Source: Siphonodentalium dalli
Lineage: Eukaryota > Mollusca > Scaphopoda > Gadilida > Siphonodentaliidae
Direction of reading: 5' to 3'
DNA length: 64,000 nucleotides
Assembly (NCBI GenBank): GCA_032622095.1
Contig: CP136065.1
Location: 151,967,577 to 152,031,576 of the forward strand
In this document: one piece after another, positions 4,225-64,000 of the stretch
How positions within the stretch are numbered: position 1 is the first letter of the stretch
Layout: each line of letters begins with the position of its first letter
Position numbers and translations under genes: made by a program
Notes under the pieces: model-generated
The model's database searches: none
Seen by the model: the letters and a program-made list of their open reading frames with translations, nothing else
Told to the model about the DNA's origin: nothing

Positions 4225-4253
4225 ATGTAAACTGGAACTGCATATGACCGTAC

Positions 4254-4394
4254 CCTGTTTTTCTTCCGCACTCTTTTTTCCTTCCTCTTGATTTCTGCTA
4301 CCTCCTCATCTTCTTCTTCCTCCTCTTCTTCTTCCTCCTCTTCTTCCTCCTCCTCTTCTTCTTCTTCATCAATTTCATCATCGTCCATTCCAAT
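4254..4394 (-). CDS. Minus-gene exon: poly-Glu run followed by Lys/Arg-rich segment (47 codons)
   Basis: On the minus strand an acceptor (…ttttttattgtag, AG at 4396-4395) opens IGMDDDEIDEEEEE, followed by a Glu run with an Asp, then DEEVAEIKRKEKRVRKKNR. The donor is AGG|gtacgg (GT at 4253-4252). Length is 141 nt, phase 0 at both ends. The exon encodes a strongly acidic block followed by a basic block; the plus-strand gene has the reverse order (basic then acidic) in its exon at 36637. The GAA/GAG codon mixture, not one pure trinucleotide, argues for selected coding sequence. Alternatively this is a microsatellite that happens to be open, but both splice sites and flanking exons favour an exon. 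Confidence 0.6.
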
Positions 4395-4548
4395 CTACAA
4401 TAAAAAACAAATATAACAAGAATTATTCCAGCCCATTGGTGTGAAGCTCATGATTATCAATGGAGTCACAGTTATTGAATACATATTATAGGAAACAAGC
4501 AGAAAATACTTAGTTCTGACGTGGCCAAGAGTGATGATGTAATTATGC

Positions 4549-18717: not shown

Positions 18718-21700
18718 GGGAGTGACTAAAACACAGAATGGGACGATGGGATGGGACGGTATTGGGATGGTATTAGAAAACCCGCTGTTTATCAATAATA
18801 CAGCTTGTAGCGGCACCAAAATGGTTATATATAGTCAGTATTAACATGGCGTACAGGAAAGAACGATTTAATAGTCTCATTCGCCAACACAAAGCGCATA
18901 TTATCGGCTAAAAATAGACACATCGAAAATAGGCCATTACGGTAAAACGCAGAACAAAAATGTAAACACCAAATCACCCCATGCATTCACATTTTCCTGT
19001 CCCACGGTGATATTTTTGCACAAAATGCTAGATTATATCTTCTCGACATCAGTGTTGCATTTTATTGGCCATAATCAAGATTAAAACAACTGTTTTTGTC
19101 GATGGGACAGCAGCGGTAAAACGCAGAACAGCCATAGGAAATTGCAGAACGAAAATGTAAACAACAAAATCATTCACCGCATTCATATTTCCCCGTCCCA
19201 CAGCGATATATTTACATAAAATATTAGATTAACATCTTCTCGACATCATTGTAGCATTTTAATGACCATAATCAAGATTAAAACATTTTTTTTCGCTGAT
19301 AGGACGGAAGCAGTAAAACGCAGAACAACCATAGGAAATTGCAGAACAAAACAAAATCATTCACCGCATTCATATTTCTCCGTCCCACAGTGATATTTTT
19401 GCATAAAATGTTAGATTAACATCTTCTCAACATCATTGTAGCATTTTATTGACCATAATCAAGATCAAAACAACTTTTTTCGAAGAAGCAGTAAAACGCA
19501 GAACAACTTAGGAAATTGCAGAACGAAATGGTTGTTCTGCGTTTTACCGCGTCTGTGGGACGGGGACATAATTATGAATGTATAGAATGATTTTATTGTT
19601 CGTTCTGCAATTTCCAAAGGTTGTTCTGTTTTACCACTGCTGTCCCTTGTTGAAACAAGTTGTTTTAATCTTGATTACGGTGAATAAAATGCTAAAATGA
19701 TGTCGAGAATATATTAATCTAACATTCTGTGCAGAAATATGATCATGGGACTGCGAAATATGAATGTATTTGTTGTTTACATGTTCGCTCTGCCTTTTAC
19801 CATGGCTGTTCTGCGTTCTACCGAGTCTGTCCCATCAGCGAAACAACTTGTTTTAAATTGATTATGATCAACGATTGTGGTCAATAGAATGATACACTGA
19901 TGTCGAGAATATATTAATCGCAAATTTTGTGCAGAAATATCGGTATGGGACTGCAAAATATGAACGCACTTGTTGTTTACCTGTTCGTTCTGCCATTTAC
20001 CGTGGCCGTTCTGCTTTTTACCGCCTGTGTCCCATCGAAGTTCTTTCAAACTTGATTATGGTGAATAAAATGCTACACTGATGTCGAGAATATATCAAGA
20101 AATTTTGTCATGGGACGGCGAAATATGAATGAATTTGTTGTTATTTTGCCTTTTACCACGGCTGTTCTGCGTTTTACCATGCACTTCTTTGATTGTGGAG
20201 TGCTGTTTTTGTTCAAATAAAATATTGGCGATGTATCTTTTTATCGTCTTATATTTTATGTGACATGACATGTAATTATAATAAAAAGCGTTTCTTAATT
20301 TATATTGTATAATCCATGAGAAATGCATATATGCCCTTAACTATATGTGGTTGCTGGTTCGAACAGTGTTCAAATACATGAATACTATACACCATTCGGA
20401 GGTGTATAACACAAACAGCGAGTAATTCTCACCGATACCATATCAGCACCCGAAAGAGTCTGTGTCCTCTGCCACCAGTTATGCAAACACATTTTGTTGT
20501 TTCCAAATGTTGTTCTGCGTTAACTGATAAACAGCGGGTTTTTGTCCTGTTCCATCTTTCTGTTCTGCGTTTTCTAATAACGTCTCATCCCATCTAATAC
20601 CGTCCCATCCCATCTAACACCGTCCCATCCCGTTCTGCAATTCCAAAGGTTGGTCTGCGTTTTACCGCTGCTGTCCCATCAGCGAAAAAAGTTGTTTTAA
20701 TCTTGATTATGGTCATTAAAATGCTAAAATGATGTTGAGAAGATGTTAATTTAACATTTAATGCAAAAATATCACCGTGGGACAGGGAAATATGAATGCG
20801 GTGAATGATGTTTTTGTTAATTACCATTTCTTTCTGCAATTTCCTAAGTTGTTCTGCGTTTTACCGCTTCTGTCCCATCGACTAAAAAGGATGTTTTAAA
20901 CTTAATTATGGTCAATAAAATGGGATCCCCAATAAAATGCTACACTGATGACTATATAAAGCCATTTTGGTGCTGCTACATGCTGTATTATTGATAAACA
21001 GCGGGTTTTTGTCCCGTCCCATCTTAGCTGTTCTGCGTTTTCTAATACCGTCCCATCCCATCTAATACCATCCCATACCGTCTCATCCCATCTAACACCG
21101 TCCCATCCCGTTCTGCAATTTCCAAAGGTTGTACTAGCTGCATTTTACCGCTGCTGTCCCATCAGCGAAAAAAGTTGTTTTAATCTTGATTATGGTCATT
21201 AAAATGCTACAATGATGTCGAGAAGATGTTAATCTAACATTTTATGCAAAAATATCACCGTGGGACGGGGAAATATGAATGCGGTGAATGAAGTTTTTGT
21301 TTACCATTTCGTTCTGCAATTTCCAAAGGTTGTTCTGCGTTTTACTGCTTCTGTCCCATCGATGAAAAAAGTTGTTTTAATCTTGATTATGGTCAATAAA
21401 ATGCTACACTGATGTCGAAAAGATATTAGTCTAACATTTTATGCAACACTATCACCGTGAAACGGGGAAATATGAATGCGGTGAATGATTTTGTTGTTTA
21501 CATTTTCGTTCTGCAATTTCCAAAGGTTGTTAGAACTGCCTTTTAACGCGTCTGTCCCATCGATGTAAAAAGTTGTTTTAATCTTAATTATGGTCAATAA
21601 AATGGGATCCCAATAACTGCTACACTGATGACTATATAGAGCCATTTTGGTGCTGCTACAAGCTGTAATATTGATAAACAGCGTGTTTTTGTCCCGTCCC

Positions 21701-22620
21701 ATCTTAGGGCCGGGTCCATCTTAGCTGTTCTGTGTTTTCTAATACCGTCCCATCCCATCTAATACCACCCCATACCGTCTCATCCCGTTCTGCAATTTCC
21801 TATGGTTGTTCTGCGTTTTGCCACTGCTGTCCCATTAGCGAAAAAAGTTGTTTTAATCTTGATTATGGTCATTAAAATGCTACAATGATGTCGAGAAGAT
21901 GTTAATCTAACATTTTATGCAAAAATATCACTGTGGGACGGGGAAATATGAATGCGGTGAATGATTTTGTTTCGTTCTGCAATTTCCTATGGTTGTTCTG
22001 CGTTTTACCGCTTCCGTCCCAGCAGCGAAAAAATTTTTTTTAATCTTGATTATGGTCATTAAAATGCTACAATGATGTCGAGAAGATGTTAATTTAATCT
22101 AACATTTTATGTAAAAATATCGCTGTGGAACGGGGAAATATGAATGCGGTGAATGATTTTGTTGTTTACATTTTCGTTCTGCAATTTCCTATATGGTTGT
22201 TCTGCGTTTTAGCGCTGCTGTCCCATCGACAAAAACAGTTGTTTTAATCTTGATTATGACCAATAAAATGCAACACGTACTGATGTCGGGAAGATATTAA
22301 TCTAACATTTTGCGCAAAAATATCACCGTGGGACAGGGAAATGTAAATGCATGGAGTGATTTGGTGTGTTTACATTTTCGTTCTGCATTTTACCGTAATG
22401 GCCTATTTTCGATGTGTCTATTTTTAGCCGATAATATGCGCTTTGTGTTGGCGAATGAGACTATTATAGTATTAAATCGTTGTTCCCTGTACCGTACGCC
22501 ATGTTAATACCGACTATATATAACCATTTTGGTGCCGCTACAAGCTGTATTATTGATAAACAGCGGGTTTTCTAATACCGTCCCATCCCATTCAGGCCAT
22601 TCTGCGTTTTAGTCACTCCC
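18718..22620. mobile_element. 3.9-kb foldback-type element built from roughly 195-bp repeats
   Basis: Ends are inverted: GGGAGTGACTAAAAC at 18718 and GTTTTAGTCACTCCC ending at 22620, with 8-bp flanks gttttttt (18710-18717) and gttttttg (22621-22628). The outer 350-400 bp on each side are complementary (gccattacggtaaaac…, aagcgcatattatcggct… and complements). The interior is an array of roughly 195-bp units marked by cgttctgcaatttcc and ctgcgttttaccgctgctgt: about three face one way (to about 19515), and about a dozen the other way (19530-22400). Internal copies of the right-end segment (gataaacagcgggtttttgt, taataccgtcccatccc) recur near 20990, 21670 and 22550. ORFs on the minus strand at 19777-20049, 20095-20328, 20594-20839 and 21439-21702 follow the repeat unit and are not genes. 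Confidence 0.8.
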
Positions 22621-26856: not shown

Positions 26857-27113
26857 TATAGTACATTGTATGTAGATTTCTAAAAAATAGTTTTCCCCAA
26901 ATGGACATCAGGCACAGGAATATAAACCCAAGATGTGTTATAGCGAGTATCGACCTATTTAAATACTGAAATACTACAGGCCAATCTAAAATAATTGTTA
27001 CTATTTGCTCAATTACTTACAAGCCACTTTGGGCATATATTTTAGTAGCACATCCCTAATAATTTATACTACTAGTACGTGATGCTTTCAGTTGTTGTTT
27101 ATTTTGCAGAGCT

Positions 27114-27312
27114 ATGTCCTATTATGGTGGATATGGTGGTGGTGCTGCCTATGGAGGGGGGTACCAACAAGACTACCAGTCCAACTATCCAGCATATGGC
27201 AGTGCTTACACAAACGCAAATCCATACGGGGGCTATGGTGTAGGTGAAGCTGCTCCTCCTCCAGGTATCGGATATGCTTCTGCTGGATATGGATATGGAG
27301 ATCCTTATGGAG
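27114..27312 (+). CDS. Annexin coding exon 1: Gly/Tyr-rich N-terminal tail
   Basis: An acceptor (tattttgcag, AG 27108-27109) is followed by agct and ATG at 27114. The protein begins MSYYGGYGGGAAYGGGYQQ and continues through YPAYGSAY, PYGGYGVGEAAPPPGIG and GYGYGDPYGG. The donor GGAG|gtcagt at 27313 leaves phase 1, which joins exactly to exon 2. Reading on would end at the TGA at 27336-27338. The first ATG after the acceptor is the only sensible start. Gly/Tyr/Pro-rich annexin tails are known in A7 and A11, and the A11 tail is known to phase-separate; that property is only a possibility here. Confidence 0.85.
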
Positions 27313-27411
27313 GTCAGTATGTTAATCCTGGTGAATGAACTTTGCCACCCAGTCTGATTATGATTAAGTGTTACATGTATGTCAAGAACATTGTCCTAAA
27401 CAAACTTTTAA

Positions 27412-27611
27412 CCCTTCCATAGGGAGCCTTGCATATAAGAAAATGCATTGGCCTAACACTATTTACCTTGACCTTGTAAGCCAGTGCATTATCTTATATA
27501 TGCGAGGTTCCCTTTTGGAAACTCGCATGAAACTGTCATATATACAGGCAGGAGAGTGCACCGGTACAGGATCATTAATGCCACACCAGTGCAGCTCCAG
27601 TCATTAAATGG
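27412..27611. mobile_element. TTAA-flanked double-hairpin MITE (family 1)
   Basis: TTAA at 27408-27411 and 27612-27615. Starts CCCTTCCATAGGGAGCC, so the outer arm of the first hairpin is deleted. It keeps the second hairpin and the gctgcaccag-like right end (ccacaccagtgcagctccag). Lies 100 bp downstream of exon 1. Confidence 0.7.
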
Positions 27612-27941
27612 TTAAGTTTATATCTATTTAATTGAGTTTGGTGTAGGACAATATGACTGATGTGTTTTTCTCTGACCTAAGTAGATTTAGCTATATAATG
27701 AAGGATTGTTTTGTCACAAAATAATAGGACTAAAGCTCCATTTCTATCGATAACACTATGACTGAATACATGTTCTGCTTGGTGATGTGGAGAAATAATT
27801 GCTTTGAAATTATACACTCCATTTTGTTTTGAAATTAGACAGCATAGAAAAAATGTGAACACCGAGATGGAACGTATAACTACTGAGAATGGGATGTGAC
27901 TCCAGACCACATTCAAGTAATTACAGAATGTGTCACTTTAA

Positions 27942-28206
27942 CACTTCCATGAATGGAGCTTCCTGAAATTTTGCGAAAACCCTGTACCAAATTGCCAATG
28001 CATCCTCTTCTATATGAATGCGAGTCTCCCATAGGGTACCTCGCATATATAAGAGAAAACATTGGCCTAACAATAGTTACCTAGTCCTTGCAAGCCAGTG
28101 AATTCTCTTATATATGTGAGGCTCCCTATGGGAGACTCACATATAAGAGAATACACTGGCACAGGATCTTTAATGCTGCACCAATGCAGCTCCCATAATG
28201 AAAGGG
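27942..28206. mobile_element. Double-hairpin MITE (family 1)
   Basis: TTAA at 27938-27941; right site mutated to TCAA (28207-28210). Starts CACTTCCATGAATGGAGCTT and ends cagctcccataatgaaaggg. Both internal aatgcattctctta-type hairpins are recognisable but diverged. Ends 95 bp before exon 2. Confidence 0.75.
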
Positions 28207-28301
28207 TCAAATGCGCCGGCATTCCATTATAAAAATCTTTGCCCAGACAATACCAAATATTATAGTGTGATGTACATGTTGTTGCTTCTTTTCTCCAGCA
28301 G

Positions 28302-28372
28302 GTGGATATGCATCATTCAATTGTCCAGCCGTGCAGCAGTGTTCAACCTATTACTCTGGGCAAATGCATCAA
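28302..28372 (+). CDS. Annexin coding exon 2: Gln/Cys/Tyr-rich
   Basis: Acceptor ttttctccagcag (AG 28300-28301, a CAGCAG tandem acceptor). Joined to the last base of exon 1 it reads GGYASFNCPAVQQCSTYYSG then QMHQ, and the donor is CAA|gttagt. The exon is 71 nt and supplies 24 codons with the shared one. Using the upstream AG would insert three bases (one extra Gln codon equivalent) without breaking the frame, so NAGNAG variation is possible. Confidence 0.8.
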
Positions 28373-28396
28373 GTTAGTTCTTAACTAAGTTATTGA

Positions 28397-28831
28397 CAAG
28401 CCTGCAAATAGTGTGTCTGTCATTTGTAGAATTAGATCCCCAGAGAGTGAATCTAGTGGACGCTATCCCGCATGTGGGTTAGCATTACCAAATTAACTCT
28501 CTGGGAACCTCATTCTGCTTAGGTCTCAACTGCTAAGGTCCAAGGAGACCTAGGATAAGATTGAATTTCCCCAGTTGAAGTTGGTGACGTTCACCCATTA
28601 GTCACCTCAATTATACATTTCTATCTGCAAATTAAGGGATATAGAAACTTCCCAGAAGGGAAAAAGTAACTAAAACAATGTTAATTTGAGACCCTAGATA
28701 CTTCCCAGAAGATGAGGCAGAATGACGTCCCAGAGGGTGAATTTGGTGATGCTAGCCTGCTGTGTGGGATAGCATCACTATTTCCCTCTGGGGACCTCAT
28801 TCTGCAAAAGACAGAAACTATTTGCAGGTTT
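28397..28831. mobile_element. MITE of the AAGCCTGCAAATAG family
   Basis: Begins CAAGCCTGCAAATAGTGTG 24 bp after exon 2 and ends CTATTTGCAGGTTT. Flanking 9-mers are agttattga and gttgattga (partial match). Internal layout matches the other full copies, including 'ccccagttgaagttggtga' and 'gaaacttcccagaaggg'. Confidence 0.7.
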
Positions 28832-28939
28832 GTTGATTGATCATACTCATCTTGTCTTAACTAGATTATTGAAAAAATTTAGTATCATTTGCTAATTATT
28901 AAAAGGCTAGAAGGTGTTAATTTATTCCCATTTAATTAC

Positions 28940-29580
28940 AATTTGAAGAATAATGGCCAGGTACCTTTACATTTCCTTTAGCAAGAATACCATATTTTGC
29001 CCTAATGTTACATTTGAAAACTTAAAAATATGGGCGGCCTTCGTGTGGGTATAGCTGTTAAAATAGTCACATCTGCTAAAACCGCCATAAACAGAACCAA
29101 TATTATATAATAGACAGATATTGTTCTTATACCAATCATAAATATCGCGTATATTGCATGTTATTGTCACGATTGTAAACTTTGTAATGTAAACAAACAT
29201 CAAAAACGTTACAGAAATGTTTGTTTATAGACAAACACTTGGAACTACTGGATCGTCCAATGAAAATGTTCCATTGCGCTGTAGTATTTTCTCCTAACAT
29301 ATAAATGGTAATACATACCAAATAAGGAATTTACTATGAATAGTATTGTGAGTTGTAAGTTGTAGACGCACCCAATTAGGGGTGAAATGTGCTTGAATCT
29401 AAATAATGAAATGACGCAATATCGTGACTTTGCTTATAAACAATCCACTGTGCTTTTTGCGAGAAACTGAACAACACTCGACCTGTATTTTCTCAGACAC
29501 AAAGCATGTTTTGTGAAAAATATCGCATTCATATCATCATTATGCTATACTATTAATATATTCTTGAGGAAATTATCAGA
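28940..29580. repeat. Intronic dispersed repeat related to 8110-8470 and 35190-35420
   Basis: The block 29040-29215 (aaccgccataaacagaacca, atagacagatattgttctta, catgttattgtcacg) aligns with 35255-35370 in the same orientation and with 8217-8340 in reverse. Divergence is high. The minus-strand ORFs 28967-29203 and 29136-29321 fall in it and are not genes. Confidence 0.5.
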
Positions 29581-29829
29581 ATTTGATCAATGTTATTTCT
29601 GAATTATAACCTACAACTAAGGCCGCCCGTCCCTTTAAGTCTTTGTACTGATCTTATAATATTGCAAGTAATATGGAATAGCTTCTTAAAGTCTGCAATT
29701 TTTGTCATACAAATGGAATTTTTCTGGGATTATAGTACATGTAAATGTGCATTCTCTTATACCGGTATATGCGAGGCTACCAAGTTTTCAATCAGCGCAA
29801 AATATAACAAATGGATTTTTTCTTTTCAG

Positions 29830-29928
29830 GCTCCTGCAGGATCCATGTTGCCCGTTTCACAACAATGTCAGAATTACAATACTCAAATGCTTCAACAACA
29901 GGCTGCTGCGCAGGAACAAATCAAAATT
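29830..29928 (+). CDS. Annexin coding exon 3: Gln-rich segment
   Basis: Acceptor tttttcttttcag (AG 29828-29829). The exon reads APAGSMLPVSQQCQNYNTQM then LQQQAAAQEQIKI, with donor ATT|gtaaga. It is 99 nt and phase 0 at both ends. The Gln/Ala stretch may form a short helix leading into the charged block. A longer open frame (29590-29994) runs through both splice sites but has no other support. Confidence 0.8.
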
Positions 29929-30362
29929 GTAAGATTCAATGTCATGTACATAATAGGTATTATTATGCCACAAATAGAACAAAATGCTGCTTAAAATCTG
30001 GTATATTTGCTTTGATCTTATATTATACTGATGACATTGCCACATTTTGTCCTGTAGGTATAGCATCACGCACACTGTGTAACCAGTTGAATCTCTGGGA
30101 AACTGGATTCTGTGGGCAGACAACACTGATCTTCTGACTTTTCTCACTGTCAAATTCATATAATTGGCAAACAGAAGGTCATAATTGGATGTAATGGGCC
30201 ATTATTATTTAGATGTCAACATTTCAACATCTAACCACCATAGAGTATAGCAAAACTGAGTTATAATTTCACAAAATTGGAAAGCGAAGAGATGGTGTGA
30301 CTGACAGCAAAAAAAAATTTCCTTAAATGCCTTAAATCAGTTCTTGTTGTCTTGTTTTTCAG

Positions 30363-30383
30363 CAAATCAAAGGCGGAAAAAAG
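30363..30383 (+). CDS. Annexin microexon 4 (21 nt, QIKGGKK)
   Basis: A good acceptor (tcttgtttttcag) and a good donor (AAG|gtaaga) bracket 21 nt that read QIKGGKK in phase 0, matching the phase of exons 3 and 5. It prolongs the EQIKI ending of exon 3 and leads into the Lys-rich exon 5. Because it is in frame at both ends it could be skipped without a frameshift. It is too short for ORF-based detection; the call rests on the two splice sites and the phase. Confidence 0.65.
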
Positions 30384-30549
30384 GTAAGACATTTTTATTT
30401 TGATATTCCTTAGTTGCCGATTAATTTTTTTCATGGTTTACCAAAGACTCAATTTATATAATAGAGTCAGTTGTAATGCCAACAATCTTAATTTGAGTGT
30501 TTAATAGTTTCATATTCAAAGATCATGACAAAAAACTTGTTTTATATAT

Positions 30550-30653
30550 CTACAACTCATCACCAGTTTATAGCGAAATTTACAAAACTCGTCCAGCCCT
30601 AATTTACTGGACTAATTTTGTAAATTTCGCTATAAACTGGGAATGAGTTGTAG
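30550..30653. repeat. Inverted repeat (hairpin) in intron 4
   Basis: ctacaactcatcaccagttt… (30550) pairs with …aaactgggaatgagttgtag (ending 30653), and the arms continue through tatagcgaaatttacaaaa and its complement. Loop about 25 bp. Confidence 0.75.
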
Positions 30654-30823
30654 ATTCTATTTTTACTTGATCCAAAACCTCCATAAAACATACTTAAATC
30701 AATAAATGGGACGCGAAACTAACAGCGGCTTCTGTAAGGACTGAGATGAAGTTTTACGTAACAATGCATTGTTTGTCCGCATGAAGAAATAGTAAAAAAT
30801 ATAAGACTCTTTGACGTATTTAA

Positions 30824-31068
30824 CCCTTCCATGACTGGAGCTTCCTGAACTTTTGCGAAAACACTGTGCAAATGCATTTTCTTATAAATGCGAGTATCCC
30901 ATAGACAGCCTCACATATATAAGAGAATACATTGGCCTAACAATATTTGCCTTGACCTTGTAAGCCAATGCATTCTCTTATATATATGAGGCTCCCTTGC
31001 ATATATAAGAGAATGCACTGCCACAGTATCGTTAATGCTGCACCAGCGCAGCTCACGTCATGAAAGGG
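30824..31068. mobile_element. TTAA-flanked double-hairpin MITE (family 1), full copy
   Basis: TTAA at 30820-30823 and 31069-31072. CCCTTCCATGACTGGAGCTT at the left, AGCTCACGTCATGAAAGGG at the right, two internal hairpins between. With 37841-38103 it defines the roughly 245-265-bp family size. Confidence 0.8.
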
Positions 31069-32198
31069 TTAATGCCATTAATTTTATGAAATAACTTTGC
31101 AAACTATCATTCCTCATCTGTAGCATACGAAATGTAAACAGATGACAAACCGGAAGTCAAAGGTCACATTTGTGCAACAATAAAACATTTGGGTTCACCT
31201 GGCACTATTTCCTGTTGTACAATGACCGTCTGCTCTTGACTAAGTACAGATACAAAGACAACACATTTGTAGCAGATAGCCACTGGCTTTATTGGTGACA
31301 AGGTGAAAACAGACATTCCAGCAACGGCCGTCAGAAACATTTGGAAGCAGAAAACTTTTTAATTTTCGTGCCAATAGCATGGCTAGTAACTTCATACTGT
31401 CTTATATGCTAATGCAGTATATCCATGCAGTTGGTAAATATCTTCTCAAACCAAGATTTTCAAACAACTTGATTGAACTGATAACTGTTTACAGAAGGCA
31501 TTCAGGCATTAAAACAGAGATAAAACCACTGTGTGGAGAAAACAACTCTGAAAGCTTTGAATGCTCTTGCCCGCATACATGCAGAAAATCAAACATATGC
31601 AACTGATACATTATATGCATATATAAACATGATCAATATGAATCCTACGCGATTAGTTCCAATTCGTAATAATTTGATTCCAGCAAAGCACTGAATTCCA
31701 AAATTCAGAAAAATCTACACAATATGTGAGCTCCATTTATTTGAAATATCCACATGTTCTTTTAATTTAAATTAAAATTTGATACGTGCACCTTGCGTAC
31801 CAGACCGGTTAAAGTGACCAGAACATTAGCTCACACAGTAAGCCCGACCACGGCTTACACTCATTATAGGGTCCTGCGAATTGGATATTTTGATCGAATC
31901 GAATTTCGAATCGAATTCACGAAATCGAATCGAATATAGAATCGAATATCGAATTGAATCATATATGTGTGTTGCTTCTCAATTAGGCATGTTTTGTTAA
32001 CGATTTGTGAAACGTTCTATGAACTACATGCATGAAGTTCCATCACAACTTATGTGGCGATGAACCGTCGTTTGAGATACTATTAACTTCGATTTATAAT
32101 TGTCGAGAAAAAAAAACAAATTAAAACGTCCATGCTGCCATCACAACAATTAATATATTACCACTAAACGGATTATCGGAACTAAAATCACGCAAAAT

Positions 32199-32940
32199 TT
32201 ATATAGTCTGCATGTACATTGCAATTCGGCATTCGGAAACACTCGTTGTTATAAACTTGAAGACGCAACAACAGTCGCAGGGTAGATGATTCCATAGATG
32301 GGTAATAGTCCCAGATGCTTGCGTTTTATACACCATGTTGCATTCATCACACGTGTAAGTCCCTGCACTGCCTGAAGCTTTATCATGTTTAAAGGTACTC
32401 AATCCGAACAGAGGGTCCCCATCTCAACTGATTCCAACAACAACAATCCGATCAGAGGGTCCTATATTACTATTTCTTTGGGGGTAAAAACTATTTGATT
32501 CGAGTCGAGGAACCCATCAAACAAAGCTCATAGTTATTAGATATTGATTTTTGAAATTTGTTATTTACTCGAGATGAGTACTAATAATTTTTGAAACTTG
32601 TTATTTACTCGAGATGAGTACTAATAATTGCCTTCAACTGTCGTAATCTGCTCGGGATGTGTACACCAAAATCTATTCAAACAGACAAGGATGGATAACT
32701 CTAAAATCAAGTGGTAATAATGCAATTTTGACTGAGTTCTGGGCCAGAAAGTATTCCCGATAATGAAAAATAATAGATTTCTAAAATCGATATCTGACAA
32801 ATCTGAGCTTTGATGGGTGACTTCCTCGACTCGAATCAAATATTTTTGACCCCCGAAGCCATTGAAATAGTAATTGAGAGGAGTTTTATCGGATTGAGTA
32901 CCTTTAAAATAAACATGAATGACTGTCGACATTTTGTCCA
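32199..32940 (-). pseudogene. BED zinc-finger fragment of a hAT transposase, interrupted
   Basis: Minus strand: a short start segment (MSTVIHVYF, from about 32933) is cut by the 511-bp element at 32393-32903, and the rest continues KHDKASGSAGTYTCDECNMV then YKTQASGTITHLWNHL. C-x2-C…H-x4-H with a preceding aromatic/Phe motif fits a BED zinc finger, the DNA-binding module at the N terminus of many hAT transposases. The frame continues to a stop at 32199. The remainder of a transposase is absent. Confidence 0.6.
32393..32903. mobile_element. TTAA-flanked MITE with AGGTACTCAATCCGATTA ends (511 bp)
   Basis: TTAA at 32389-32392 and 32904-32907; ends AGGTACTCAATCCGA… and …TCGGATTGAGTACCT. It sits inside the BED finger of the hAT element, so it is younger than that element. 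Near its middle a 37-bp direct duplication occurs (ttgttatttactcgagatga at about 32559 and 32598). Related copies: 45038-45297, 51332-51525, fragment 5273-5365. Confidence 0.8.
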
Positions 32941-33481
32941 GTGTAAACGAAAGCTCCGAAACTGAAAGACAACTTCAAAAGAAAACACCGCCAAAATGGT
33001 CTTTTCAACACCGGGAACACGTGTTGTTTACAGTCTCAACGATATTACATAACGCGGAATCTGAGACGGATAGACGATGGATAACGCAATCGGTTGCTCA
33101 GTCTCATAGCAACCGATAGCTACTCGCGTCGTCGGTCCATCGGCAATCTCCGAGCTTTTGCTACCATTTTAAAGCTATAATTCCCGTCGTATTTAGTCAT
33201 CCTATAGTGCCAAATGCTGGCTATAATTATATTTAATAGCATGCGAACATCCGCGATGTAGAATAAGAATTATTAGGTGTATATATACATAATTTTCTGG
33301 AATTAAATGCCACAAAAACAGCTAAGATCGACATGTGTACTTGTCCGTAAACAGCTTACGTTTCCGTCAAAGTATATTCGAAATTTCGAGTTGCCAATTT
33401 CGACTCGAATTCGAATCGAATTTGACTTTCGAATCGAATCTCGAATCGAATATCGAATATTCGCAGGAGCCTAACTCATTA

Positions 33482-34267
33482 GCACTAATCACACGCCTGT
33501 AGCATGTGATCCACAATGACAACGACTCAGTTGTACTCATATGTTACGCTTCAGACAAAAGTTTTGTACTATACTGCGAAACGTTCAAAACAAATAATTG
33601 TATATCATTATTATAGAATGAGTTTACTAGTAATGAATGGAATAAAGGGTCGGAGTGTCTTGCTGTGAGTGCTGTTTCAGCATGGTTCTTGTGGGTCGCT
33701 TCTCTTTGGATGCTTCACCTACAGATGGCCGTAGCATCTTGTAGGGACTGGTTGCTTCTGGGGCACTGCACTGCCATGGGCCATGGAGCCCTTTCAGTCA
33801 CTTGACATTGACCGAGTGGGCTCTGTGTCACATGGAGGTGCTTCTCCGGGAGCGACCAGGCTCATGCAGGGGGGGGGGGGCTGTGGTTGTTGGGGAAGGG
33901 GTATCTGGGTGCAGCATCCCATTCGGAGGGCTGAGATAGGAATGGCATTTTCATCTGATCCAGTGTGGGTGGGTAAGGATGCAGGACTGGGACAGGTGAT
34001 TGTAATATCCTGTGTCCCAATACCATATATGTTGAACTTATTATGTACATGTATGTTGAACTTAAATATGTTTTAACTATTTATCACATAATTTGCCCAT
34101 AAAAGCAGTTTCATAATTATCGGTAAGAGACACGTTTAATAACAGCGCGTGCGATGACGTCACACCATTCTTTAAATGACTTGTGATGGCTGCAGTTTAT
34201 GATTGTTGTTTTCGATGAATACTTCGCGTTTATTTGATCATGTGATAAAACGTATCTTACACTCCTC
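33482..34267. other. Intronic stretch with a GC-rich block
   Basis: 33640-34010 is markedly richer in G than its surroundings and contains a G10 run at 33870-33879. ORFs on both strands (33783-34076, 33862-34050) have no recognisable domain. Its style resembles 48420-48700, so it may be a transposon fragment. TGACGTCA palindrome at 34155-34162. Confidence 0.3.
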
Positions 34268-34379
34268 CTATTTTATACGTAATTTATCAACCTCGTCCAT
34301 TAAATTCTATTTGAGCCTCGGTAAACCTTGGCTCAAATCGAATTTAGTGAACTCGGTTGATAAATTCCGTATAAAATAG
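34268..34379. repeat. Inverted repeat (hairpin) in intron 4
   Basis: ctattttatacgtaatttat (34268) pairs with ataaattccgtataaaatag (ending 34379), and the arms continue through attctatttgagcc / ggctcaaatcgaat. Total span 112 bp. Confidence 0.75.
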
Positions 34380-36636
34380 AAACTCATGTGAGATCCTCTA
34401 TATATCAAATTTTTCATTTCTTAAAAAGCCTCCGTTGAAATAAAGACTCCTTATTCTGGGGGACATGTGGCCTAGTAGCCTTTTATAGGGCAAGATTTGA
34501 TGACGTCACACAACACGTGTTCTTAGCAGTGGTAGGCAAAACATTGACCAGTGTCTAACAGATGTTCTTTGTTTACACTGAAGTGTGGTCAAAATATGCG
34601 TGTTTAAAAAATATGTATGAACAACAAAGAAAGATAAACGGCAAAAACAAAATATGGGAATAGTTGTTATGTTAATGGGTGTTCCAATTTTTCGTGTTTA
34701 TATTTCCGTTTGATAAATATAACAACTTATATGTTCAGATTAAGGTAGATTGTTTATATCAAAGACATGTGTATATGATACGCGGAATAATTGTAATCGA
34801 CGAATTCATGAAATACTATCATCAGAATAAAACATCTATGGAGTTGAATGACTACTTCAGCTTTTGTTTATATTTTCAATTTGATCGCTAAATGGTTGTG
34901 ACAATTAAAAACTTCCCCGAGTTCGGTGCAATTCTCAACACGACTTCTATCATTTTCACTAGCGCCGATGTAAATTCTTATACATACATATATACACCTG
35001 GCTGTGTTTATTTTATTTCTCTTTCGTTTGATTGTATTTGTCTAGAAATTTATTATTTTGTACTCCCGTTTCTAAATAGCATGCATGGGGCGCAAGGATA
35101 TTCACCCGATGGTAAAGATGGGCGAGGCAGTGTTTTTTCTTGTGTATGGCACAACTCAGTTAATAGAATATTTGAAACCTTTGAAACAAGTTGTTAAAAG
35201 ATACGGGCTGCGTTGGTGGGGGTATGCTGTTGAAATATTCACCTCCGTCAAAAATCGCCATAAACAGAAAGAATAGTAAAATATAGACAGATTTTGTTCA
35301 AAAAAACAATCAGAAATATGGAATAAACAGTATGTTATTGTCAATTTCCCCCTTTGTTTTGTAAACAAAAACAAAAAACGTTACGTTTCCTGCCTTTTGT
35401 TTAGATCCGGATATGGTAAACATAAAGAGAGTTTTTCACTGTTTTCCTGATATGGAAATAATAAAGAGCGTTATTATAATTTTTTGTATGATAAACCAAT
35501 ATAATTGCGCTGTGTTATGTAAACAGAAACATAACTTCTGTAACACGAGCAGGCTCTTGTTTACGTACACCATTGTACGTCTTGACGACGATATACTATT
35601 TACGTGCTGATTAATTATGTTTGGCATATGAACAAAACTATGTATATTTTAATATTCCTTCTGTTGATGACGATTTGAACAAATGTGAATATTTCTGCAA
35701 CGTACGCCGCCCATGCCTTTACATGGTAGAAAAAGACACACTCATGTTTCAAAAAATGTTTCTTGCACACGAATCAATAAAGAGCGTTTGTCGTTACTAT
35801 GTTCAGAATTTCGTACGAACAAAGAGCGTTTATCTCAGTTATGTTTCAAAAGAAATGGACAATATGTGACTTGGTAATACGTTTTTATCGACGTCTTATC
35901 TCGCCTTTGAAATTAAATATACAGACGTCGCATGTCCAAACGGTCCTTAACTGGTGCATATACCTAGTAAATAAAGAACATTGGGTACTAATTTCCGCTC
36001 GTATGTGAGCCATGTTCCTTGATTTTATAAATTCATATATTTTGCTCGTTACAATGTCAGTCAATCAACATCTATACCTAATGGGACAACTCACGAACTG
36101 CATGATAAGCTAACAGAGAGACCAAATTACAATTGCATTCGTCGCTGCACGTGTTATTGATATAAAATGAATATGCATGGTGGACACAATTGCAACCAAA
36201 TATTTGAACTTGGTGATGCATTTTATATATCGCGCGTGTGTGTGTGTGCGCTAGTAAATGGAACACCCGGGCGAATTTACCAAATACAAAACAATAACAC
36301 CCGCATGACCACGTGTCGAAATATCCTCCAAATTGTCACAAAATCGTCAGTTATAATTATAATCCGCGCCAGTGTTCACGTACATGTATGTTATTGTGTC
36401 ACTGGAAGAACTTTACGTTAAATATTTCATGTATAAGAGGAAAGTATAGGGTGTTTTGCGAGACACCATTGTGTGTTTCTGTGTTAATCTATACACAGCT
36501 GGTCTTTGTTTTGCCTACCAGCAGCCAATACACGTGGTCGCTGTGACGTCATTGTTTGTATACAAAATTCTCCCCTATTAAAATTTCATTTATTGCCTTT
36601 CAAAAATGGGAGATCACAAGGAATTATTATTTGCAG
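34380..36636. other. Rest of intron 4: dispersed repeats, no extra exon supported
   Basis: Includes the 35190-35420 copy of the repeat at 29040-29215 and recurring 'aataaagagcgtt' words (35459, 35776, 35818). Several short plus-strand ORFs (34892-35197, 35085-35276, 35621-35869) lack domains and splice context. TGACGTCA palindromes at 34501-34508 and 36544-36551. Confidence 0.4.
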
Positions 36637-36745
36637 AAAAAGAGGAAGAACAAGAAAAAGAAGAAGAAGCGACGACAAGTTGAGGAGGATGAAGAAGAGG
36701 AAGAAGAGGAAGAGGAGGATGAGGAGGAAGAAGACGAAGGAGTGG
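36637..36745 (+). CDS. Annexin coding exon 5: Lys-rich then Glu-rich charged block
   Basis: Acceptor aattattatttgcag (AG 36635-36636). Reads KKRKNKKKKKKRRQVEEDEE, then a Glu run with Asp breaks, ending EEEEDEG(V). The Lys/Arg stretch looks like a nuclear localisation or nucleic-acid/acidic-lipid contact segment; the acidic run follows directly. Two donors are possible, GGA|gtgggt (end 36742) and TGG|gtactt (end 36745); both are phase 1 and differ by one Val codon. Mixed GAA/GAG and AAG/AAA/CGA codons suggest a selected sequence rather than a fresh microsatellite. The minus-strand exon 4254-4394 has the same two blocks in reverse order. Confidence 0.75.
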
Positions 36746-36861
36746 GTACTTCATCCTGTCAATTAACTTTATTTTTAGCTCAACTTGACTTTGTCGTTTG
36801 TGTGCATTTGTGCATCTTGTCAACAATTTCCTTTAGAACACTACAGGCCACGTACATTACT

Positions 36862-37395
36862 CATCTGATCATCACCAAACTTCATATGGATCTTTGTGGT
36901 GACCTCTAGATGGGAGTCATTGATTTTTTCCCAAAATTTGTTAAAAAACATGGCTGCCAGCAGCCATCTTGGATTTCAAATTTGAATCCATCAGCACACC
37001 CTACAGCCCGCATTTACTGGAGAATTGTTTTGAAAATTTACAGGCATGTTTAGGATCACCTCTAGATGGGAGCTATCGTTTTGTATGATTTTGTATGAAA
37101 AACATGGCCACCAGCAGCCATCTTAGATTTTACTCTTTCCCTGACTAAATCCTTTGTCACACCCTGCAAACCATATCTCTCTTCCGATCATCACCATACA
37201 TCATATGGATCTTCAGGGTGACCTCTAAATGGGAGCCAATTTTCCGAAATTTGTTAAAAAAACATGCCCATATCTTGGGTTTCAAATTTGAATCCATCAG
37301 TAGGTATGTTTAAGATCACATTTAGATGGGAGTTTTCGATTTTGATGAAAAATATGGCCAACATCAGCCATCTTGGAATTTACTCTTTGCATCAC
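36862..37395. repeat. Tandem array of roughly 120-190-bp units in intron 5
   Basis: Four diverged units, marked by 'gatcacctctagatgggagc' and 'aaacatggctgccagcagcc' variants, start near 36862, 37045, 37188 and 37305. The array nearly fills intron 5. A single related piece (aaacttcatatggctcttcc) is at 52480. Such arrays are frequent in marine invertebrate genomes. Confidence 0.7.
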
Positions 37396-37540
37396 TAACT
37401 TCAGTTGTTTCTATCTGCAGAGGAGTGATTTCCATTGAAATTAACCCTCCACATGGTCTCTCCTCCAATAATACAGCTGACAATGTTGTTATATAGCATT
37501 GCTGCCAAAAGGATGATAAATAATAAATTTCTACAGGGAG

Positions 37541-37786
37541 AAGCGATGGATGAGGAGGCGTTTAAAGAAAAATTTAAGAATGTCTTCTGCGATGAATTGA
37601 TGAGAAGACAGAGAGTTTCTGGCACATTTGAGATGACACAAGGCACCGTGAAGGGGATGGCTGTGTATCCAGAAGATGACCCAGTGGTGGAGTATATAAA
37701 GAATGAGGAGGGAACAGACTTGGCTGGAGAGGAGTGGGACAAAGAATCTGATTGCCGGTACTTGAGAGATGCAATGAAGGGTCTTG
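37541..37786 (+). CDS. Annexin coding exon 6: acidic pre-core segment and start of repeat 1
   Basis: To keep phase 1 from exon 5, the acceptor must be the second AG (ctacaggg-AG, 37539-37540). Reading: (E)AMDEEAFKEKFKNVFCDELM…, then GTVKGMAVYPEDDPVVEYIK…, EGTDLAGEEWDKES and DCRYLRDAMKGL(G). The last 12 residues are helix A and the start of the Ca2+ loop of annexin repeat 1. The preceding roughly 65 residues are not annexin core and match no domain I know. The donor CTTG|gtaagt is strong. The exon is followed 54 bp later by a family-1 MITE. Confidence 0.85.
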
Positions 37787-37840
37787 GTAAGTAACAGGGT
37801 GATGGACAAGCTGAAATTTGGGCTGTTCACAAATATTTAA

Positions 37841-38103
37841 CCCTTCCATTATTGGAGCTTCCTGAAATTTTGCGAAAACTCTGTGCAAATAATGCATTCT
37901 CTGATATACATGTATGCGAGTCTCCCATAGGGAGCCTCAGATATATAAGAGAATGCATTGACCTAACAATATTTACTTTGACCTTGAAAGCCAGTGATTC
38001 TCTTATATATGCGAGACTCCCTATGGGAGACTCGCATATATAAGAGAATGCACTTGCACAGGATCTTTAATGCTGCACCAGCACAGCTCCCATCATGAAA
38101 TAT
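37841..38103. mobile_element. TTAA-flanked double-hairpin MITE (family 1)
   Basis: TTAA at 37837-37840 and 38104-38107 inside a longer shared aatatttaa flank. Starts CCCTTCCATTATTGGAGCTT. The right end reads cagctcccatcatgaaatat, lacking the usual AAGGG. Both internal hairpins are well preserved (ctccctatgggagactcgca). Confidence 0.8.
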
Positions 38104-40755: not shown

Positions 40756-40850
40756 GAACCAATGATGATGCAATTATTCATGTAGTTGCCACCAGAAATA
40801 ATGCACAGAGGCAGGAACTCAAGAAAATGTTCAAAACAGCATATGGAAGG
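40756..40850 (+). CDS. Annexin coding exon 7: repeat 1, Ca2+ loop to helix D
   Basis: Acceptor ttgaattttcag. With the last base of exon 6 it reads GTNDDAIIHVVATRNNAQRQ then ELKKMFKTAYGR, and ends AGG|gtatgg. This is the classic annexin repeat-1 pattern (GLGT…, R-N-x-Q-R-Q-E-[LI]). The GLGTNDD loop is a type II Ca2+ site; the matching downstream acidic residue would be in exon 8. Confidence 0.95.
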
Positions 40851-43980: not shown

Positions 43981-44094
43981 GACCTGATTGAGGATATTGA
44001 AGGAGAGTTGAGTGGTGACTTCAAGGAAACGGTGTTGGCGTGCTTTGTGTCTCCACCTTATTATGATGCCTACTGTATGAAAGAGGCTATTTAT
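43981..44094 (+). CDS. Annexin coding exon 8: end of repeat 1, start of repeat 2
   Basis: Acceptor aatatctatttcag; reads DLIEDIEGELSGDFKETVLA then CFVSPPYYDAYCMKEAIY, donor TAT|gtaaga. It is 114 nt, phase 0 at both ends. ELSGDFKE supplies the conserved acidic residue pairing with the repeat-1 GLGT loop; DAYCMKEAI is helix A of repeat 2. The pattern is close to ordinary annexins. Confidence 0.95.
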
Positions 44095-45940: not shown

Positions 45941-46031
45941 GGTTTGGGGACGGATGAGTCCTGTTTGATGGAAGTACTAATGACGAGGACAAATGGACAG
46001 ATTCAGGAAGCCAGGAAATGTTACCAGGAAA
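45941..46031 (+). CDS. Annexin coding exon 9: repeat 2, Ca2+ loop to helix D
   Basis: Acceptor gatgtgttcttcag; reads GLGTDESCLMEVLMTRTNGQ then IQEARKCYQE, donor GAAA|gtgagt, phase 1. The GLGTDE type II loop and TRTN-x-x-I are standard annexin repeat-2 features. A family-1 MITE ends 19 bp upstream. Confidence 0.95.
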
Positions 46032-54216: not shown

Positions 54217-54317
54217 TTACCACCAAGAATGTAAACAGAACAAACACAGAGATAGAAAATGATATTGATGGTGACTGCTCTGGTGACTTCAAAAGATTAC
54301 TCATATCAGCTGCACAG
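54217..54317 (+). CDS. Annexin coding exon 10: end of repeat 2 with enlarged loop
   Basis: Acceptor tggtttctatcttcag; joined to exon 9's last base it reads ITTKNVNRTNTEIENDIDGD then CSGDFKRLLISAAQ, donor CAG|gtaaca. GDCSGDFKRLL is the standard annexin helix D-E junction. The stretch between CYQE and GDCSGDF is about seven residues longer than in annexin A5 (TTKNVNRTN), an insertion in the loop after helix C/D. A fragment of a family-1 MITE begins 20 bp after the donor. Confidence 0.9.
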
Positions 54318-58451: not shown

Positions 58452-60325
58452 AGAACTAGCAGATTAGCCCGCCACTGGCGGGATTGGTCCCATGGCTTTG
58501 GTTGATCCATTAATTTTTGTTTTTCAAGGTAACCCCGTACAGGCATGCTATCATATAACCCGACAAAAATATTCCCCGTACCGAGTTGACCATACATAAC
58601 AAATTTCATGTCGATGTCACCGCTGACGACCGAGATATCGCCCAAGGTCATTTGTGGGTACCCGTTTCAAGGTCAAGGTCACCTCAGGTGGACAAACTGA
58701 CCCGATGAAAATCTCCCCCGTCCCTTGGAAGCCCTAAGTAGGAAATTTCGTCTCGATATCCCCAGTTTCCGAGATGGTCTATTGAGCCGTATTTATACTC
58801 GTGTATATAAACGCACTTTAACAACGAAACCGCAGATACGAACACTCTTTAATCATAACCTCATTAACCCATCAATTCCAACGACGATGGCAGGGTGAAG
58901 GGTGAAGGAGTGCTCGGACGTTCTCAGAAGCAGTGCGATGGCACTTCTGGTGGCTTTTTACCCTTAAGACATCAATCCCCATTGCGGTGGCAGTTGAAGG
59001 GTGAACGAGTGGTCGCAACGGCTCGCGAATGGTCCGATGACACTTCTCGTGGCTTTTTACCCTTACACAGCAAGTTTGGGCTCAATCGGTCGAGCCGTTT
59101 TCAAAACTATAAAGGATATACACACACATATATATACATATATACGGACGTCTTAAAATATATAGTAGACTAGCCAATGAGCCCGACGTTGTCCGGGCTA
59201 TTCAAAAACCAAATTTCAAGTCGATAGCTCCACCCGTTTCCGAGATATGGTCTGCGCATGCGCGAAGCTGGCGTCGCACGGGCTCGGCGACCTGATAAAA
59301 TTCGTATCTGGGGCAAGATACATTCACATAGCAAATTTCAAGTCGATAGCTCCACCCGTTTCCGAGATCTGGTCTGCGCATGCGCGAAGCTGGCTTCGCA
59401 CGGGCTCGGCGACCCGATAAAATTCGTATCCGGGGCAAGATACATTCACATAGCAAATTTCAAGTCGATAGCTCCACCCGTTTCCGAGATCTCGTCTGCG
59501 CATGCGCGAAGCGGGCGCCGCACGGGCTCGCCAATACGATAACGTCCACCGCCTGGTCAAACTACACACACGTACCAAGTTTCGTCCCGATCGGTCGAGA
59601 ATCGTAGATTTGTATAAATGACAGACAAACATACAGACAGACAAACAGAGGTCTTCAAAATATATATGAGACTAGCAGATTAGCCCGCCACTGGCGGGAT
59701 TGGTCCCATGGCTTTGGTCGATCCATTAATTTTTGTTTTTCAAGGTAACCCTGTACGTAGCTGCCACCGCTGAAGCCCGAAATATCGTCCAAGGTCATTT
59801 GCGAGTACCCGTGTCAAGGTCATGTTGGGTGGACAAAATAACCTGACAAAAATATTTCCTGTCCCGAGTTGACCATACATAACAAATTTCACATCGATGT
59901 CACCGCTGACTACCGAGATATCACCAAGGTCATTTGTGGGTACCCGTTTCAAGGTCAAGGCCACCTCGGGCAGACAAACTGACCTGACGAAAATCTCCCC
60001 TGTCCCTTGGAACCCCTAAGTACGAAATTTCGTCTCGATATCCCAAGTTTCCGAGCGAGACGGTCAAATGCCGTATTTTCACTAAAGTAGATAAACGCTC
60101 TTTTAATAGCGACGCCTCATATACAAACGCTCATTAATTATCACGCGATTAACCCATCAATCCCCATTACGGTGGCAGTTGAAGGGTGAAGGAGTGCTCG
60201 GACATTCTCAGAAGCGGTGCGATGACACTTCCCTTGGCTTGTTACCCTTAGATAGGAAGTTTGGGCTCAATCGGTTGAGCCGTTTCTAGTCTATAAAGGA
60301 TATATATACACACACATATATATAT
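58452..60325. repeat. Chain of three composite repeats (A-B-A')
   Basis: A (58452-59160) and A' (59666-60320) begin actagcagattagcccgcc and share ggtcatttgtgggtacccgt, cctgtcccttggaacccc-like and gaagggtgaaggagtgctcg segments. They end with ctcaatcggtcgagccgttt, a tatata/caca tract and 'gtcttaaaatatata'. B (59161-59665) begins actagccaatgagcccgacg and holds three tandem 122-bp units. Each begins with a small hairpin (cccgccactggcggg; gcccgacgttgtccgggc). ORFs on both strands (58895-59644, minus 59740-59964) follow repeat units. End structure suggests non-LTR or SINE-like 3' tails, but this is not certain. Confidence 0.65.
59211..59545. repeat. Three tandem 122-bp units (within B)
   Basis: aaatttcaagtcgatagctc starts at 59211, 59333 and 59455. 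Each unit includes tctgcgcatgcgcgaagc and the GC-rich cgcacgggctcggcgac. A reverse-oriented, two-unit copy is at about 15510-15665 inside another element. Confidence 0.85.
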
Positions 60326-62400: not shown

Positions 62401-62652
62401 GGTAACAGAAATGAACCATCGCGGAACAAGGTGTTTGATGCTGTTGAGGAGTTAATGAATGAAGGCAACCCTACAGGTTTATACCAGATCAACTATGAGA
62501 AATTGTGCAAGAAGGAACAGTGTAAACGAGATGCTAAACTTCTGTTTGAGGCTGGTGAAGACAAGTGGGGTACTGACGAAGAAACCTTCAACAGGATATT
62601 TTCAACACGTGACTACTACAGTCTGCGTCAGATTTATGATGAGTATGTTAAG
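62401..62652 (+). CDS. Annexin coding exon 11: extended repeat 2-3 linker and first half of repeat 3
   Basis: Acceptor gttttatttaaacag; reads GNRNEPSRNKVFDAVEELMN, a linker with KLCKKEQCKRDAKLLFEAG, then EDKWGTDEETFNRIFSTRDY and YSLRQIYDEYVK, donor AAG|gtatgt. It is 252 nt, phase 0. KWGTDEE and STRxxxxLRQIxDEY are standard annexin repeat-3 signatures. The linker between the end of repeat 2 and DAKLLF is about 43 residues, against about 16 in annexin A5. The next exon (second half of repeat 3, repeat 4) should follow beyond the window. Confidence 0.95.
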
Positions 62653-64000
62653 GTATGTGTTAGCTGTTGTTAAATAGTCAACTCAATGCGTTACCTTCTC
62701 TATAGAGTTTAATCGGGCCATGTAATAATCGTTTATAATTACCATTTTTTATTACACTCCTATTCGCGATTTCCATTGAAAATGGTAATGTCACTAGTGA
62801 ATTATGTCTTTTCTCGTGACGTCATTGATGTTACGTCGCTTACTAAATTTTCGGGAATTTTTCTCCTCATCAAGACTTTAATGCATTAATTCTGGGTGAT
62901 TTAATCATATCTAGCAAACCAAATTGATGCAGAAGTGTAATAAATAGAGTAATCAATTAGTGCGCACTCGTTTCTTACCGACGTCTCTCGTCACTCGTGA
63001 ATTATTTAACGTAATTCTCTAAACCAATTGATTACTCTCTATATAAAAAAAATTCTTACTTGCTTCTCACATGGCTTAAATATAATCAATTGAACTATAG
63101 TCCAGAGTCCACAAATAAGTAAGAGAAACAGGATCTGTATTTGATTGACTCCAGCAGTAACTAAATTGTGCTAATCAGTGAAGGTCAAGTATTAAGCTGG
63201 GGATTCCCAGATTTTTCAGAATTAATTCGAGGGATCCCCTAATTTTTGTAAACATGTGCAAATAGATGTGGTAAGTTATAAATGCAATTTACCGTAATAA
63301 CTGACTGTTTTCATGGACCATTAGGGAATATTATTATGTATAGTGTGTCTCTATTGTACATAGCATTTTGCCACGCATATAGTCCCTAGCAGAGCTGTTA
63401 AGTTTCATGGATTGTCCATGAGATTCCCGGATAGCCACGGCAATTCCGCAAATACGGATAACCCCCAATTTCTCCCAGCATTCAAAATAAAAAAAAAACA
63501 TGTTGTTTTATTTTTCAAATATTCCTGCTTTTGCGGGGAGTGATTCCTTATTTCCGTTACCGTAAATACCCACACATTAACATCACAGAATGTACCGTTG
63601 GTAGCTTTTGATATTCCCTCTGATTGAAGACTAATCAGTGGTGAACTGTGACTGATATTAATTTATTTTCACACTCTGGTGAAGCCACACATATAAAGGA
63701 TGTTGTTATAGTATACAATACGTATAATCGCAAGTGTGCATCTGTATTGTAAGGCATCTGTATTTCTAAGTAACGGATTAGTGGTATGCATTGTGAATGA
63801 AATGTGTCTATTTCGTTGCAGGTAAAACTGTAAGACGGGTCAATTTGTAATTTCGGTTTCACGCATACATGTCCGGTTGTAACCTGTGTATCTCTGGTTC
63901 GTTTTTTCTTATTTTAAAATTTGTTAATAACTGGTGGAATGTGTCCATTTCTTTAAACCGTAAGACGAGTCCATTTTGTAGTTTGTTCAGATTTTGTACT
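62653..64000. other. Intron 11 start, no further exon in window
   Basis: I searched for the expected repeat-3 continuation (SG-x-D/E-I… helix and SGD) in plus frames and did not find it. A TGACGTCA palindrome is at 62817-62824. The minus ORF 63635-63862 is not supported. Confidence 0.4.

Follow-up and report, generated by a model that had tools for sequence, protein, structure and literature searches.

A predicted charge-block exon inside an (AGA)n microsatellite of an A7/A11-like annexin gene

The annexin gene and its exons

The plus strand of the window (the whole stretch of DNA analysed, 64 kb in length) carries an annexin gene that opens with an ATG at 27114 and whose last exon within the window lies at 62401-62652. 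A single open frame runs through ten exons bordered by AG/GT and translates to 459 residues, and both the start at 27114 and the exon end at 37786, which the first-pass annotation had given, hold in this model. An AG acceptor immediately 5' of 27110 implies a further, non-coding exon upstream. The exons are as follows, with splice scores for the first five:

27110..27312, + strand: start of the coding sequence (ATG at 27114) and Gly/Tyr-rich part of the tail; acceptor 10.89, donor 7.62
28302..28372, + strand: tail exon GYASFNCPAVQQCSTYYSGQMHQ; acceptor 11.58, donor 5.32
29830..29928, + strand: Gln/Ala-rich tail exon, phase 0-0; acceptor 13.64, donor 5.32
36637..36741, + strand: exon 5, the charge-block exon (predicted, unproven), 35 codons, phase 0-0; acceptor 7.18, donor 3.30
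37537..37786, + strand: exon 6, beginning of annexin repeat I (as far as MKGLG), preceded by about 58 residues that are not annexin; acceptor 7.10, donor 9.07
40756..40850, + strand: second exon of annexin repeat I, from the GLGT calcium loop onward
43981..44094, + strand: end of annexin repeat I and start of repeat II
45941..46031, + strand: annexin repeat II, GLGTDE loop
54217..54317, + strand: end of annexin repeat II, with a 7-residue insertion relative to the aligned solved annexins
62401..62652, + strand: long II-III linker and start of annexin repeat III (KWGTDE)

The 459-residue protein matches the Pfam family Annexin (PF00191) in three stretches (2.1e-51, 172.3 bits against a cut-off of 25); five other families (E from 0.00083, DUF4471, to 0.092) fell below their cut-offs and are taken as low-complexity matches. 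Repeats I and II and the start of repeat III can be read, and the window ends (at 64000) before the remainder of the core: neither repeat IV nor the missing part of repeat III turned up between 62652 and the window end. The type II calcium loop of annexins pairs GxGT with a downstream acidic residue at a distance of about 38 positions. Repeat I has GLGT together with IEDIEGELSG at the expected spacing, repeat II has GLGT in a register shifted by the 7-residue insertion, and in repeat III a KWGT loop begins whose continuation lies outside the window. Most of what appears to be an A7/A11-type annexin gene lies in the window, unbroken as far as it is readable; the annexin matches and the long introns suggest an animal source.

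Two length differences in the core were observed in passing. The insertion in repeat II maps to 54217-54240 in the printed PDB alignments, and the II-III linker (62401-62520) contains 31-33 unmatched residues, compared to 4-6 in annexin VI lobe 1, A7, A11 and chick A5; searched alone, this linker matched no annexin linker.

The tail encoded by exons 2-4 (27110-29928) comprises 123 residues (19% G, 15% Y, 13% A, 13% Q and 7% P). Exon 5 encodes 14 residues, 12 of them K/R (charge +12), followed by 21 residues with 19 D/E (-19), so that counting recovers all four compositions that had been described for the N terminus: Gly/Tyr-rich, Gln-rich, Lys/Arg-rich and a Glu/Asp run. The suggested pair of adjoining basic and acidic blocks, in frame and placed between tail and core, likewise stands, with the use of the exon itself being predicted.

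The segment before the core had been called an acidic, non-annexin stretch of about 65 residues. Its non-annexin nature agrees with the search of exon 6 alone against Pfam, which returned no family up to E = 10, but the segment counts about 58 residues and is only mildly acidic (-6, from 8 K/R and 14 D/E). It is slightly shorter than had been claimed because the annexin alignments begin 0-15 residues before DCRYLRD: in the five printed alignments the best PDB stretches start at exon-6 residue 57, 59, 64, 64 or 72. DCRYLRD opens with the D at residue 72, and four of the five alignments also take in the 8-15 residues directly ahead of this motif. Exon 6 alone gave a single PDB match (E = 1), which is taken as chance, and an amphipathic helix in exon 6 (best moment only 0.30) was not used.

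Several searches covered other material. A search for homologues of exon 6 in a viral contig collection gave no pattern match, and a search with the 301-residue core in prokaryotic genome contigs gave 32 pattern matches, none of which was confirmed; with their viral and prokaryotic scope, both say little. Rfam returned 0 matches at gathering scores on the 64-kb window, and Pfam, applied to 10 hand-picked pieces out of 2433 stop-to-stop stretches, returned one annexin exon, one sub-threshold match and nothing for the other eight. Repeats occur in several parts of the window: tandem arrays are located at 18949-19528 (187-base unit), 21109-21604 (197), 21786-22391 (187) and 59210-59530 (122), and ATATATAAGAGAATGCA or its complement is present in 13 exact copies, e.g. 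around 37840-38100. ATATATAAGAGAATGCA forms part of an interspersed element with palindromic sequence, which may represent a small family of transposons.

Microsatellite, splice signals and codon pattern of exon 5

Exon 5 consists of KKRKNKKKKKKRRQ followed by VEEDEEEEEEEEEDEEEEDEG and coincides with an (AGA)n microsatellite array at 36635-36739; the microsatellite nature of the charged block is added here to the first-pass annotation. Its donor (3.30) is the lowest of the ten exons and its acceptor (7.18) the second lowest. Exon 5 stands in phase 0 with both neighbouring exons and can therefore be skipped in frame; transcripts that lack it would be fully compatible with the sequence, given the weak donor and the frame that survives skipping. 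Frames 1 (mostly basic) and 2 (three stops) were rejected, since frame 0 fits both splice phases, as was an alternative donor at 36746 (score 1.33, wrong phase). Exon 5 alone hit five Pfam families, all under their cut-offs (E 1.8-9.9). In the intron that follows, between exons 5 and 6, the stretch 36860-37398 consists of partly repeated elements (e.g. 36860-36994 against 37179-37300, 79% identity).

How often such an exon arises by chance was approached with a splice scan for open phase 0-0 candidates of 60-300 bases, with thresholds of 7.0 and 3.2, just under the scores of exon 5. The scan found one candidate between 29950 and 37500, five on the plus strand of the window and eight on the minus strand. 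Within the 7.55 kb of intron that was scanned, exon 5 is thus the sole phase 0-0 candidate to score this high. Going by the printed scores, three of the five plus-strand candidates must be exons 4, 5 and 8, and the remaining ten on both strands correspond, by arithmetic, to about 0.6 chance candidates in 7.55 kb. As that many are expected in the intron by chance, the splice evidence taken alone is weak for exon 5. An open frame is also what a purine-rich tract tends to have in any case.

The codons provide a different kind of evidence. All 19 acidic codons of exon 5 are GAN and differ from one another solely in the third base (8 G, 8 A, 2 T, 1 C), while the basic half uses AAR, AGG, AAC, CGA and CAA, with two CGA codons retaining Arg. 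A Fisher test of position 3 versus position 2 gives p = 0.00013; it ignores slippage, and we therefore rely on neutral simulations of a drifting and slipping microsatellite, run in 12 settings with a slippage rate of our own choosing and compared over those tracts in which 8 or more of the 19 codons were variable in some phase. Variation restricted to position 3 arose in 0-13% of these comparable neutral runs (from 0/3600 to 122/917 across the 12 settings), and in 129/7393 in an earlier simulation run. The value of 122/917 belongs to the highest slippage rate simulated, at which the pattern is not rare. The codon pattern favours a coding status of exon 5, with a strength that depends on the slippage rate.

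Elsewhere in the window, the minus strand at 4237-4410 contains a likely coding stretch in which a long D/E run precedes a K/R-rich part (MDDDEIDEEE...EDEEVAEIKRKEKRVRKKN). All 23 codons of its D/E run are GAN and change solely in the third base, as in exon 5, a parallel that speaks for the coding reading of exon 5.

Competing explanations and a possible charge switch

The combination of a short charged block, a simple repeat and modest splice signals can have several explanations. We consider it about an even chance that the gene encodes an A7/A11-type annexin in which the (AGA)n microsatellite became an optional cassette exon, adding a basic block with its own acidic mask. On the other hand, exon 5 might be no exon at all: an intronic purine-rich microsatellite open by chance, with the Gln-rich exon joining exon 6 directly. 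The protein would then be A7/A11-like, with a longer segment ahead of the core. This reading has an appreciable probability, short of even. The microsatellite spans the whole of exon 5, its donor is the weakest of ten, the number of chance candidates expected in the intron is not negligible (the 0.6 derived above), and the frame is kept when exon 5 is skipped; against it speak the 19/19 acidic codons that vary at position 3 only, matched in the minority of comparable neutral runs given above, and the CGA CGA pair, which preserves the basic charge.

Alternatively, exon 5 may be real and nevertheless a low-complexity spacer without specific function, derived from a repeat, fast-changing and tolerated in a disordered tail. 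Such a spacer would agree with the microsatellite origin, and the D/E run of the likely coding stretch at 4237-4410 indicates that runs of this kind may be common in the genome. The clean division into one basic and one acidic block with unmixed charges, as well as the position-3 variation of the acidic codons, point the other way, and we regard the spacer as improbable. It is far less probable still that the gene has alternative N termini, with a first exon at exon 6 or slightly upstream of it giving a short-tailed annexin and the tail exons belonging to another isoform. Translation could then start at an in-frame ATG at 37546, 9 bases into exon 6, or at one farther upstream, where the frame is open from 37429, but the three tail exons hold the top acceptor scores of the ten and continue in frame into exon 6.

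Returning to the optional cassette exon, the reading that we favour runs as follows. A disordered Gly/Tyr/Gln-rich tail, of a kind that joins condensates in ANXA11, would sit on a Ca2+-dependent lipid-binding core, and the intron that parts tail from core would have supplied the (AGA)n microsatellite from which a small symmetric cassette exon arose. Inclusion of exon 5 would set a basic block of 12 charges ahead of an acidic block of 19. The basic block would probably serve as a nuclear-import, RNA-binding or anionic-lipid-binding element; its KKRK fits the pattern K-K/R-X-K/R. The acidic block would fold back electrostatically and mask it, until Ca2+, a binding partner or nucleic acid competes and releases the mask, and optional splicing would pick which molecules carry the charge switch. 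A bolder and rather unlikely proposal is that exon 5 acts as a self-masked polybasic switch by which splicing controls nuclear entry, or an RNA or lipid contact, of a calcium-dependent membrane tether. The DNA itself shows the sequence, the reading frame, the splice signals, the annexin core, the composition of the tail and the codon pattern; the use of exon 5, its behaviour as a cassette and every function named here are what we infer from it.

The favoured reading has precedents. PMC1087847 describes an alternatively spliced cassette exon in ANXA7 that yields tissue-specific isoforms with differing N-terminal domains, and attributes nuclear localization of A11 to its N-terminal region. The tail of ANXA11 drives phase separation, and its core binds lysosomal lipids with Ca2+ (PMC6890474); in HEXIM1, an acidic region keeps a basic region autoinhibited (PMC12901311). 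How annexins enter the nucleus was a stated question in 2005, when no annexin was known to hold a typical nuclear signal (PMC1087847). If the favoured reading is true, an annexin with an optional, self-neutralising charged exon would show cleanly whether a charge block is enough by itself to redirect such a protein, and would be an example of a microsatellite turned regulatory exon.

Relation to known annexins and to HEXIM1

A PDB search with the whole protein matched 77 distinct sequences, 60 of them listed, and annexin VI ranks first. Among the five printed alignments, the best single stretch over repeats I-II belongs to annexin A7 (PDB 8w5s; ANXA7) with 147.4 bits, followed by 6tu2 with 139.0 and the second lobe of annexin VI with 137.3; for the stretch that runs from late repeat II into repeat III, annexins VI and V outscore A7 and A11. 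The long Gly/Tyr(/Pro)-rich tail that marks the A7/A11 class is present, with its 123 residues. Tail and repeats I-II taken together, the protein is probably A7/A11-like by alignment score and composition, and the earlier recognition of an annexin with an A7/A11-style Gly/Tyr-rich tail agrees with the core matches and the tail composition. To our knowledge, an extra charged block between tail and core is absent from the A7/A11 class, and we know of no K/R-D/E block in annexin A7; the predicted exon 5, if used, would break this pattern. A literature search, with subscription papers mostly outside its scope, returned neither an annexin with a polybasic/acidic N terminus nor an invertebrate annexin tail among the matches listed.

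A different annexin, PDB 4mdu/4mdv, which we take to be from Schistosoma, resembles the present protein in that its best stretch crosses the II-III linker (query 70-295 to chain 39-252), although its overall score is lower (134.3 bits). Annexin A7 shares a long Gly/Tyr/Pro-rich N terminus (PMC7226064), and the ANXA7 cassette exon falls in the N-terminal domain (PMC1087847); in contrast to A7, the present protein has a longer II-III linker and an extra 58 or so residues ahead of repeat I. The structure 6tu2 is annexin A11, with a long Gly/Tyr/Pro-rich N terminus as well (PMC7226064), and its tail condenses while the core binds lipids (PMC6890474). The present tail differs from that of A11 in that Q and A outweigh P (7% P) and in ending in a predicted charge block.

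The comparison with HEXIM1 concerns how the parts would work and claims no homology: a linker separates the two blocks of HEXIM1 and masking takes place between monomers, whereas the likeness lies in a disordered basic region that is masked by a disordered acidic region (PMC12901311).
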